A DNA stretch of 54,776 bases from Streptococcaceae bacterium (lineage in GTDB: Bacteria; Bacillota; Bacilli; Lactobacillales; Streptococcaceae): assembly GCA_031254295.1 (NCBI GenBank), contig JAIRUS010000106.1:1-54776 (forward strand), in the 5' to 3' direction. A program made the translations under genes and the position numbers. Within the stretch, counting starts at the first letter, position 1, and every line of letters starts with the position of its first letter. The notes under the pieces are model-generated. The model was given only the letters and a program-made list of their open reading frames with translations, was not told where the DNA came from and searched no databases. This document shows, in pieces, positions 50,180-54,776 of the stretch.

Positions 50180-50421
50180 AAACTTACTCCTAATATAATA
50201 TTGTGAGATATTTTCAGAAAATTCAATCACAAATAAATTATACTAATTTTATTTGAAAAGTCAACCATAACTAGTTTTGGTCATTAAATTTATTCAATAT
50301 ATGCGAAATCGCATTTTTTAATTGCTAGTCCATAACAAATCACTAATTAGAGTGAAGTGTCCCCCGAATAAATGACACACAATAAAAAGCATCTGTCAAA
50401 ATAAATGGAGATGCTTTTTTC

Positions 50422-50571
50422 ATGGCAAAGAAAGGTCAAAAGTTTCAGAAATACACAGAAGAATTCAAGCAAGAGATATTTACGCACTATAGTTCTGGTA
50501 TTCCCACCTCAGTTCTCTCAAAGAGGTTTAAAGTGCCCGAACAGACAATTAGCACACCGGAATATCAATGA
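50422..50571 (+). pseudogene. Truncated IS3-like OrfA remnant
   Basis: MAKKGQKFQKYTEEFKQEIFTHYSSGIPTSVLSKRFKVPEQTISTPEYQ*. Confidence 0.75.
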
Positions 50572-51294: not shown

Positions 51295-51471
51295 TTACAT
51301 TGGTTGACACGTTCTTGTAGCCTGACAAACCATGTTGTAAAACCAAGGATGTGTCGGCCCTGAAGGTACATAGCCTCCGCCTTCCACTGCTGATTGGCGT
51401 CCGCCATTAATCTCTTGCAATTCTTCATCTGTCATTTCTACAAAATCACTAATATTAAAATCTTTCATCAT
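51295..51471 (-). CDS. Double-glycine-leader precursor peptide 1 (two-Cys core)
   Basis: MMKDFNISDFVEMTDEELQEINGG|RQSAVEGGGYVPSGPTHPWFYNMVCQATRTCQPM; RBS gaagg. Confidence 0.8.
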   Translation of the reverse strand: MMKDFNISDFVEMTDEELQEINGGRQSAVEGGGYVPSGPTHPWFYNMVCQATRTCQPM

Positions 51472-51630
51472 TAACCTTCTTTCTCCGAATTTCTCGGCCT
51501 TTCCACAACCTTAGTTTAGATTAGGCAACATGCTATACAATGCTCAACGTTTTATAAGTTAGTCATTGGACTCACCCCCTTTTCTTTATACCTTATGATA
51601 TAAGTATAGCATGGGATTTTATCGAGATGG

Positions 51631-51658
51631 AAAAACGATTCGAATTCGAATCGTTTTT
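51631..51658 (-). promoter_or_regulatory. 28-bp perfect palindrome upstream of precursor 1 promoter
   Basis: aaaaacgattcgaattcgaatcgttttt; -10 TATACT at 51603-51608, 36 nt from centre. Confidence 0.8.
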
Positions 51659-51955
51659 AAACTTGTCACGAATGAATATTTGACGATGATAAATTCAGAC
51701 TATTTCGAGCCTATACTGAGAATTTAGTTTTTTCACCTTTTATTTTGCTATTGTAAAAGTCCTGATAGATTGAAAGTAAGTATTTACACCCAACGTCTTG
51801 AAAATTTGCAAGCTTCGTTCCATCTTTCCTTTCCCAAGACTTTCTGAAACAAAGCAATAATCATAACTGTGCAAAAGATGAAAAGTTCGTGAGTATCCAT
51901 CCATCTCCCACAATTTTTTGGCTTTGCCTGAGGACACGCTTGGCTTCTTTCTCCC

Positions 51956-52474
51956 CTAACCTCTACCAAAGGCTCTTGTACTAAAAATAGTTGTAATTGA
52001 TCCAAGTAGAACAAAAAAAAGAGAAATTAGTAATCTTATAATCAAATTTTCGTTTCCCATCTGTAAAAATGGAAAAACATAGCCAATTACGGCAAAAAGA
52101 GGCATAAAAGTTCGACCTACATAGCTTTTCCAGAATATAACAAAAACCAGAACAGATAAAATTCCACCTAACAAAAACGGAAGCGCTAGCCAAAAATCAT
52201 GAATACCTGTCTGATTTCCCGTAATTCTTGCAATACCCAGTGGAAGCACCCTATCCTCGACCCATTTATGATAATTTGAATCCATATCATAACGAGTCCA
52301 ATTGATCTGATAAAATTTGAAATATAATATAGCGTATACTATGACATCTACTAACCAGATCATCGCATAAGCGAATAAAGCAAAACGAAGTAGTTTTTTA
52401 TTTTTTAAGATTTTGTTCATATTGACTTTCATTTGTATTCTTTTGCTTTGAATTTGCCTATTTACTAAAAACAA
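51956..52474 (-). CDS. ~4-TM membrane protein, possible immunity/accessory
   Basis: Hydrophobic segments LLRFALFAYAMIWLVDVIVYAILYF, FLLGGILSVLVFVIFW, LLISLFFVLLGSITTIF; start possibly internal (MNKILKNKK). Confidence 0.5.
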   Translation of the reverse strand: MFLVNRQIQSKRIQMKVNMNKILKNKKLLRFALFAYAMIWLVDVIVYAILYFKFYQINWTRYDMDSNYHKWVEDRVLPLGIARITGNQTGIHDFWLALPFLLGGILSVLVFVIFWKSYVGRTFMPLFAVIGYVFPFLQMGNENLIIRLLISLFFVLLGSITTIFSTRAFGRG

Positions 52475-52657
52475 TAAAATGGGAAAATATATATATCCTT
52501 TTATGGACTATCTCAAGAAAGCTGTAAAACTGCTTTCTCCGAATCTCTCGGACTCCCATAATCCTAGCTCAGATTATGTATTATTGTTCTACATAGTAAT
52601 TCAAAGTACTATTGATATTTTATAATATGTAAGTATAGTATGAGATTTTTCAATATT

Positions 52658-52684
52658 AAGAATGGTTCAAATCGAACCATTCTT
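52658..52684 (-). promoter_or_regulatory. 27-bp interrupted palindrome upstream of membrane-protein promoter
   Basis: aagaatggttc-aaatc-gaaccattctt; -10 TATACT at 52632-52637. Confidence 0.7.
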
Positions 52685-52716
52685 TTAAACTTCCCACAAG
52701 TGAGTGTTTGATTGTC

Positions 52717-52890
52717 TTAGTTCCAGTTTGAAAAACCTGTAAAACTTTCTTTTCCGCCTACCCCACTACCTGCAATTGTATACGGTAATGCAGTGTAACC
52801 AAAGTCCACCATCATAATTCCGCCATTAATCTCTTGCACTTTTTCATCTGTCATTTCTACAAAATCACTAATATTAAAGTCTTTCATCAT
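52717..52890 (-). CDS. Double-glycine-leader precursor peptide 2
   Basis: MMKDFNISDFVEMTDEKVQEINGG|IMMVDFGYTALPYTIAGSGVGGKESFTGFSNWN. Confidence 0.8.
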   Translation of the reverse strand: MMKDFNISDFVEMTDEKVQEINGGIMMVDFGYTALPYTIAGSGVGGKESFTGFSNWN

Positions 52891-52950
52891 TAACCTTCTT
52901 TTCTTTATACCTTATGATATAAGTATAGCATGGGATTTTATCAAGATGGG

Positions 52951-52976
52951 AAAACGATTCGAATTCGAATCGTTTT
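52951..52976 (-). promoter_or_regulatory. 26-bp perfect palindrome upstream of precursor 2 promoter
   Basis: aaaacgattcgaattcgaatcgtttt; -10 TATACT at 52922-52927, 36 nt from centre. Confidence 0.8.
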
Positions 52977-53000: not shown

Positions 53001-53462
53001 CTAAAAACTATACAAAACCACAATGACAGCAAACATTTCTACTAGAACAATAAAAATCGGAATGAAAAGAAACCTTGACAGATAAAATTCTAAAGATGCT
53101 TGCTTCTTATCTTTGGTTTTTTCCAAATAATTCTGGAGGCGTACCTTATCAAAAAGATGCTCTGTCGAAATATATGACTTTATCATAAAAATCATATAGG
53201 CAACAGAAAGAATACTAAAAACAAGAAATACGCCTGAAATTATACTTTTCATATTTTTTAGTAGTTCGTAGGAACCAGATAAAAAGCTAGAAATCGAAAA
53301 ATCTACTAAAATCTTATTATTAGCTCTAAAATAGAAAAAAAGTAGAGCAAAGGTATTAATAGAAATAAGAGTAAAAAGGAATTGTAAGTCAAAAAATAAT
53401 AAGCGCTTAAAGTTTCGTTTTTTATACAGCCAAGAAAACCATAAAGAATACCTAAATTTCAT
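53001..53462 (-). CDS. ~4-TM membrane protein (putative ABC permease/immunity subunit)
   Basis: Overlaps the ABC ATPase gene; four hydrophobic segments. Confidence 0.55.
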   Translation of the reverse strand: MKFRYSLWFSWLYKKRNFKRLLFFDLQFLFTLISINTFALLFFYFRANNKILVDFSISSFLSGSYELLKNMKSIISGVFLVFSILSVAYMIFMIKSYISTEHLFDKVRLQNYLEKTKDKKQASLEFYLSRFLFIPIFIVLVEMFAVIVVLYSF

Positions 53463-54060
53463 ATAGTTTCCCTCCTTTAAGTTCCAATACTTTTTGCGGA
53501 TGTTTCTGAATCAATTCTTGGTCATGTGTGGAAAAAAGAATTGCCATTCCTTTTTCTCGTTCACTTTCTAGTAAGCGAACGATATTTTCTGATTGAAAAG
53601 GTGCCAAACCAGCAGTCACTTCGTCTAATAAGAGAACTTCAGGAGAATAGGCAAGTGCCTGAGCAAGACTTGCTCTCGCGAGTTCTCCACCTGAAAGCTG
53701 ATGTGGAAATCTCTCTTTAAGATGAAAAATATCCAATTCCTGGAAAATCTTATCAAGTTTGTTTTTCACCCTTTTTTTAGTTTCACCTCTGGATAAAAAG
53801 TAATAAAGAGCATTCTCATAAATTGTTAAATTTTCATCTAGGCTTGAACTCTGCTTGAGCAAGAAAACTTGGGATGTCTCTGAAATAACTTCTCCTTCAT
53901 CTGCTTGCATATCACCAGCTAAAATACTAAGAAAAGTTGATTTACCTGCCCCTGATTTACCTACAAGGTAAACAAACTCAGCTTTATTTAAAGTAAAGCT
54001 GAGTTTATCAAGAATCAAATCTCTTTCATAAGACTTTGTAATGTTTTTCATATAAATCAT
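53452..54060 (-). CDS. ABC transporter ATPase (short, LolD/FtsE-like)
   Basis: GKSGAGKSTFLSIL, LSGGELARASLAQAL, VLLLDEVTAG. Confidence 0.93.
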   Translation of the reverse strand: MIYMKNITKSYERDLILDKLSFTLNKAEFVYLVGKSGAGKSTFLSILAGDMQADEGEVISETSQVFLLKQSSSLDENLTIYENALYYFLSRGETKKRVKNKLDKIFQELDIFHLKERFPHQLSGGELARASLAQALAYSPEVLLLDEVTAGLAPFQSENIVRLLESEREKGMAILFSTHDQELIQKHPQKVLELKGGKLYEI

Positions 54061-54097: not shown

Positions 54098-54247
54098 TTA
54101 TAGTCCCAAAGAATTAAACGGACCATAATTCCCAAGCTGAGCTTGACGTAGGGCATTATTAATTTGTAGAGTTGTTACGAATACGCCGTACTTATTAATC
54201 GTGCCAGCCACACCACCATTAATCTCTTGCAATTCTTCATCTGTCAT
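54098..54247 (-). CDS. Double-glycine-leader precursor peptide 3 (leader 5' end disrupted)
   Basis: (HHKDFNISDFVE)MTDEELQEINGG|VAGTINKYGVFVTTLQINNALRQAQLGNYGPFNSLGL; first in-frame ATG is the internal Met at 54247. Confidence 0.55.
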   Translation of the reverse strand: MTDEELQEINGGVAGTINKYGVFVTTLQINNALRQAQLGNYGPFNSLGL

Positions 54248-54358
54248 TTCTACAAAGTCACTAATATTGAAGTCTTTATGGTGGAAATGGAATCGGATAC
54301 GCTTAAAGATCCATTGATATTTTTATTTCCCTAAGCAAGTCATTGGATTTTTTAGACT

Positions 54359-54776
54359 TTAAACTTCCGTCCCTAAAGTCTCCCAAAGTCTCAATGCTTC
54401 TGAATCATCTATTGTCGTTAATATCTTTTCCCTCATTTCTATATTTCCATCTAGGGTATTGAGCTCTGCCAAAAGAATTTCCAATAACTGAGTATCTCTA
54501 AAATTGTAATCATAACTTTTCTCTTTATCCAAAATGATATAACTCCCTAACATTTCTCGTAGAGTTCCATGGATTTCTTCTTTAAGCTTTCTTATTCTAA
54601 TGAAATACATATAGAACATTAAATACAAGTCTTGTGGATATAATTTATGACTAAAATCAGCAATTTTGTAAGCTGAATCTTTATTTTCAAATATCATCAT
54701 ATGGACTATTAGTTTTTGAAAAAGCATTCTTGTATAGTTACCAAAGTTTATATTATCTTTCTCCAAATTTATAGTT
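54359..54776 (-). CDS. Partial protein at window edge; possible Rgg/MutR-type regulator C-terminal region
   Basis: All-helical ...NYTRMLFQKLIVHMMIFENKDSAYKIADFSHKLYPQDLYLMFYMYFIRIRKLKEEIHG...; frame is open through the window end. Confidence 0.4.
   Translation of the reverse strand, partial: TINLEKDNINFGNYTRMLFQKLIVHMMIFENKDSAYKIADFSHKLYPQDLYLMFYMYFIRIRKLKEEIHGTLREMLGSYIILDKEKSYDYNFRDTQLLEILLAELNTLDGNIEMREKILTTIDDSEALRLWETLGTEV

Follow-up and report, generated by a model that had tools for sequence, protein, structure and literature searches.

What reads the palindromes that stand upstream of the peptide genes in a bacteriocin-like island of a Streptococcaceae genome? The window (the whole stretch of DNA that was analysed, 54,776 nucleotides) corresponds to the entire contig C56, one of the 181 that make up a 2.12-Mb draft genome, and it carries three such palindromes, all oriented on the minus strand. 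Operator candidate P1 (51631-51658) is a perfect 28-bp palindrome, AAAAACGATTCGAATTCGAATCGTTTTT, with half-site AAACGATTCGAA of the ACGATTC type. P3 (52951-52976), a perfect 26-bp palindrome, AAAACGATTCGAATTCGAATCGTTTT, has the same core as P1 and likewise an ACGATTC half-site. P2 (52658-52684), AAGAATGGTTC-AAATC-GAACCATTCTT, has perfect 11-nt arms around a 5-nt centre and the half-site ATGGTTC. When the window was shuffled ten times under a first-order Markov model, no palindrome had arms longer than 10 nt.

The original prediction placed the centres of the two perfect palindromes 36 nt from a TATACT -10 box and that of the third about 34 nt away, with no good -35 in sight. Its coordinates and distances proved accurate: centres lie 36.0 nt from the -10 for P1 (51603-51608), 36.0 nt for P3 (52922-52927) and 33.5 nt for P2 (52632-52637), each on the minus strand. 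The boxes of P1 and P3 are extended (TGC.TATACT), and that of P2 has no TG (TAC.TATACT). We likewise saw no -35 for P1 and P3; P2 has only an overall promoter match of 9/12 with a TTAATA hexamer as -35, and matches of this type occur at chance rate in this region (23 found, with 19.9 expected from shuffles). Because P1 and P3 lie within a duplicated 88-nt block that is 94% identical, they are not independent and represent one event, not two. P2 could be weaker or differently regulated, since its centre is 1 nt shorter and its TG is missing; at the ScuR and SarF promoters, a one-nucleotide change in spacing alters selectivity (PMC6703854).

The genes of the island are encoded on the minus strand. 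P1 has as its predicted target a double-glycine leader peptide gene (51295-51471), bacteriocin-like, whose product matches PF03047 (ComC leader family) and TIGR01847 (bacteriocin signal), both above cut-off. The predicted target of P3 is a second such gene (52717-52890), with weak matches to ComC and bacteriocin leaders, and that of P2 is a gene for a 160-amino-acid membrane protein (51956-52438) that has no Pfam or NCBIfam match and is possibly an immunity protein. An ABC transporter ATPase (53452-54060), recognised by Pfam and NCBIfam profiles, overlaps the gene of a membrane protein (53001-53462) that by its position is probably the partner of the ATPase and has only a weak DUF4064 match. 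The last open reading frame of the window (54359-54775) was considered as a regulator and rejected: it is the C-terminal third of a SunS-like glycosyltransferase whose N-terminal part lies on contig C78 (L008:16195-17137). Full-length relatives occur in L007 and L005, and the one in L007 (contig C149) reaches 2.3e-24 against TIGR04195 (SunS), which falls short of the cut-off for that family. SunS-like glycosyltransferases adjoining double-glycine peptide genes suggest glycocin-type bacteriocins. The island also holds a decayed peptide gene, a third, truncated leader-peptide copy fused to other sequence (54212-54294, minus strand). Next to the island lies a short cut-off frame resembling the start of an insertion-sequence transposase (50405-50540), likely a remnant.

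Several double-glycine peptide genes of this genome are preceded by a repeated cassette, in which a micro-ORF (MSPM[T/F]YLKQ) that has a ribosome-binding site is followed by a hairpin, GTATCAATAG..CTATTGATAC, and by a palindrome, GTGCTATA..TATAGCAC. Copies are on contigs C11, C82, C149, C174 and C178 (L169-L177), and a decayed copy is in the window at about 51560-51583 (minus strand). The pattern has nine exact matches in this genome and none in the other 75 of the 76 family genomes searched. We considered the micro-ORF (MSPM[T/F]YL), which is conserved downstream of some of these promoters, as a pheromone and set it aside as part of a repeated cassette limited to one of those 76 genomes; the cassette may act as an attenuator leader or be mobile.

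P3 starts 25 nt after the stop codon of the ABC operon, and the starts of P2 and P3 both fall about 25-35 nt past upstream stop codons. This placement would also suit intrinsic terminators that serve the upstream genes and work partly in both directions, with the promoters beyond them unregulated or otherwise regulated. The predicted folds are stable hairpins (about -12.6 to -14.6 kcal/mol), the stems of P1 and P3 are flanked by an A-tract and a T-tract, and in other genomes some of the palindromes linked to rgg overlap its stop codon. However, a terminator scan flagged none of P1, P2 and P3. Stems do form, but a G+C-rich stem followed by a U-run was not found, and the P2 stem, like that of a related palindrome on C78, has no U-tail (AAUAUUG follows the stem).

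The window contains no intact regulator because the contig ends; C78 adjoins it. C78 overlaps the right end of the window by 119 identical nt, the assembly overlap on which the join is based, and the glycosyltransferase frame continues across it. It encodes an intact rgg gene with a 276-amino-acid product that matches PF21259 (5.2e-31), TIGR01716 (1.6e-40; 139 bits, cut-off 36.9) and, just below cut-off, HTH_3 (0.0013). An N-terminal helix-turn-helix (HTH) plus an Rgg C-terminal domain places the product in the Rgg/GadR/MutR family, and its nearest solved relatives are Rgg/MutR-type regulators. About 70 nt past the rgg stop codon stands the palindrome AAATGGTTCAAATTTGAACCATTT, followed by TGC.TATACT and then by a double-glycine peptide gene. 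The window itself has a decayed rgg remnant (51732-51964, minus strand) that retains only the C-terminal part (about Rgg residues 195-276), with internal stops and a frameshift. From this remnant through P1 to the -10, 369 nt are 78% identical to the rgg-operator-promoter block of C78. The flanking regulator that had been invoked for these sites was thus found twice, intact on the adjoining contig and decayed in the window.

The ATGGTTC half-site is common to P2 and the rgg-linked operator of C78, and these two sites are probably both read by the C78 Rgg. The specific half-site stands in the two places behind unrelated genes, which argues against terminators. No intact Rgg DNA-binding domain is linked to P1 and P3; a paralogue, of which the remnant behind P1 is what is left, probably read them formerly, and another Rgg or the C78 Rgg may read them now.

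P2 had been called sequence-divergent. Its half-site does differ from that of P1, but by less than claimed: the half-site of P1, AAACGATTCGAA, matches that of P2 and C78 (in its C78 form, AAATGGTTCAAA) at 9/12 positions. Between P1 and the C78 operator, 6 of 24 positions differ; every change is a transition, and the six fall exactly into three mirrored pairs, which lie at positions 3, 7 and 9 counted from the centre. Six random substitutions would give three mirrored complementary pairs about 6 times in 100,000; selection has therefore preserved the dyad through the change of word. This symmetric divergence is consistent with recognition by a homodimeric DNA-binding protein and, taken alone, with an RNA stem too.

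Allowing at most 3 mismatches, a scan of the same genome for P1-type sites gave a single further match, on C45, which lies inside a small RelE-type-toxin-like gene and was taken as chance; six sporadic matches came from 342 other family genomes. Palindromes with other half-sites stand behind further rgg genes or remnants of this genome, on C149 (L009:1325-1340), C178 (L023:1357-1384), C11 (L012:2289-2313) and C27 (L013:1426-1451); the half-sites are GGTCCAGATCTGGACC, ATCTTCGGAATCCCGAAGAT, AGTGCCTAATTGGCACT and AGAATACCTAATCGTATTCT, and -10 boxes follow at about 34, 36, 41 and 46 nt.

Is the arrangement a property of Rgg loci at large? We sought Rgg homologues in 298 family genomes and added 80 fetched loci to those of the genus. 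The survey counted 90 rgg loci. A palindrome scoring at least 9 within 114 nt of the rgg stop codon was present at 48 of the 90, so about half of the loci were without one downstream of the gene. The distance from palindrome centre to a TATAAT-like hexamer peaked at 34-36 and at 39-41 nt, with sums weighted by clusters at 50% identity of 7.1 and 6.3, respectively, over a background of 0.15 per position. The corresponding p-values (about 5e-7 and about 8e-6) are somewhat optimistic because both windows of distance were picked after the peaks had appeared in mostly the same data. As a control, the distance to the -10 was flat, with no peak, for 808 other palindromes in the same loci. Half-sites varied widely across the survey (TTCTGC, CGTCAA, GTTCC, GTTGC, CGTTGG and others).

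Spacing followed the regulator. When the 26 best Rggs were placed on a protein tree, ten members of the 40-nt class formed a single supported clade and one fell outside it; the spacing label required two changes on the tree compared with 8.7 for shuffled labels. Half-site identity rose with HTH identity (Mantel r = 0.61, p = 0.0002, n = 26; r = 0.56 for pairs of Rggs under 70% identity), a correlation that is partly shared ancestry, which the test does not remove. None of the 26 sites, in either class, had a -35 with a match of at least 5/6. An extended TGn -10 occurred at 12 of 15 sites in the 35-nt class and at 0 of 11 in the 40-nt class; this contrast is the weakest, because a TGn -10 was favoured in ranking candidate sites and selection was aware of distance. 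The sites behind the tree, the Mantel correlation and the TGn count were all selected with distance in mind, whereas the peaks and the control-palindrome counts were not. Two features expected of an Rgg-dependent promoter were found: close to the regulator gene, an inverted repeat keeps a fixed distance to the -10, and there is no canonical -35.

These results bear on what the palindromes do. A terminator needs no fixed distance to a -10, yet the distances peak at 34-36 and 39-41 nt and track the Rgg clade; this contradicts the possibility, raised as a potential refutation at the outset, that the palindromes act only as terminators, a reading to which we give very little credence. A double role, in which an Rgg operator also terminates the upstream gene, is compatible with operator function: sites just after stop codons with stable stems would suit it, and in some streptococci the ComR box lies inside the terminator stem of the upstream gene (PMC4072589). 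A second role as terminators is thus possible, given the stable hairpins and the closeness of P2 and P3 to stop codons, but we consider it doubtful: the U-tails of P2 and C78 are poor, and the gene about 75 nt upstream of P1 is decayed and needs no terminator. The palindromes might instead serve a repressing Rgg or an unrelated dimeric regulator encoded elsewhere. Dyad symmetry by itself names no protein, and some Rggs, such as Rgg3, repress by occupying a shared site (PMC4162386). Linkage to rgg, co-variation with the Rgg HTH and the absent -35 nevertheless favour an Rgg activator, and we regard this alternative as improbable.

We consider it very probable, then, that the palindromes are operators of the Rgg family (RRNPP), at which an Rgg dimer would recruit RNA polymerase and turn on double-glycine peptide genes. 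As proposed, a homodimeric Rgg would bind the dyad through its N-terminal HTH domains and bring RNA polymerase to a -10 that lacks a usable -35, and the recruited polymerase would switch on the peptide genes and their neighbours. The Rgg would bind DNA, activate rather than repress and depend on a peptide pheromone. What is seen in the sequence is the palindromes, their fixed spacing, family-wide linkage to rgg, symmetric divergence and a spacing class that tracks the Rgg clade. Our preferred reading is that P1-P3 mark promoters that lack a -35, depend on Rgg and serve a glycocin-like bacteriocin island. The earlier view of activator-dependent promoters, with a conserved geometry, a changed recognition sequence and perhaps two related regulators, is largely supported.

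Arrangements related to an Rgg dimer at a -35-less promoter have been described for ComR, RtgR, Rgg2 and RopB (PMC4162386, PMC7018657, PMC6703854). The RtgR/RtgS system of Streptococcus pneumoniae (PMC7018657) shares an Rgg regulator, double-glycine peptide genes, a truncated rgg in the locus and two nearly identical promoters with an inverted repeat, which for RtgR is needed for induction. In contrast, the island described here has a SunS-like glycosyltransferase and two related operator half-sites, and inspection by eye found no pheromone gene beside the C78 rgg and recognised no SHP- or ComS-like ORF near it. ComR, ScuR and SarF (PMC6703854, PMC5131902, PMC4072589) resemble the present case in a box just past the regulator's stop codon, in a dyad, spacer and -10 without a -35, and in paralogues with altered boxes; unlike in the ComR system, comS was not found by eye in the C78 rgg neighbourhood. 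In the published ComR box (GACA N4 TGTCCTG N20 TA), 29 nt separate the centre and the -10, and two matches in genomes have 30 nt; when GACATNNATGTC was scanned for, no more than two plausible ComR boxes emerged. Distances in the window are 33.5-36 nt (34-36 or 39-41 nt in the survey) and the half-sites are not GACA/TGTC; half-sites and a distance of 33.5-36 nt, compared with about 29-30 nt, rule out P1-P3 as ComR boxes. Rgg2/Rgg3 and RopB of S. pyogenes (PMC4162386) share the Rgg family and activator-type promoters without a canonical -35, RopB binding to inverted repeats that precede the speB P1 promoter, but their binding sequences and target genes differ from those described here. Compared with ComR and RtgR, the best reading is the same kind of promoter with other half-sites and a longer spacing.

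Rgg regulators are numerous and mostly orphan, and few of their binding sites have been mapped. We see an even chance that, in this family, the spacing from palindrome to -10 is fixed within each Rgg lineage, at 35-36 nt where the -10 is an extended TGn or at 40 nt where TGn is absent, while half-sites diversify symmetrically with the HTH and the operator travels with its own rgg, at the gene's 3' end; such a rule was not found in the non-subscription papers and passages searched. If true, the pairing of half-site and HTH would offer a readable protein-DNA recognition code, activation would come in two geometries that differ by half a helical turn, and bacteriocin islands would have a way to become insulated from one another, through duplication and divergence of rgg-operator modules. 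The two spacing classes raise a concrete question of how Rgg contacts RNA polymerase. If the operators of many Rggs can be read from the DNA just 3' of the gene, cognate sites and regulons would become predictable, recognition residues testable, and cross-talk among bacteriocin loci open to study.
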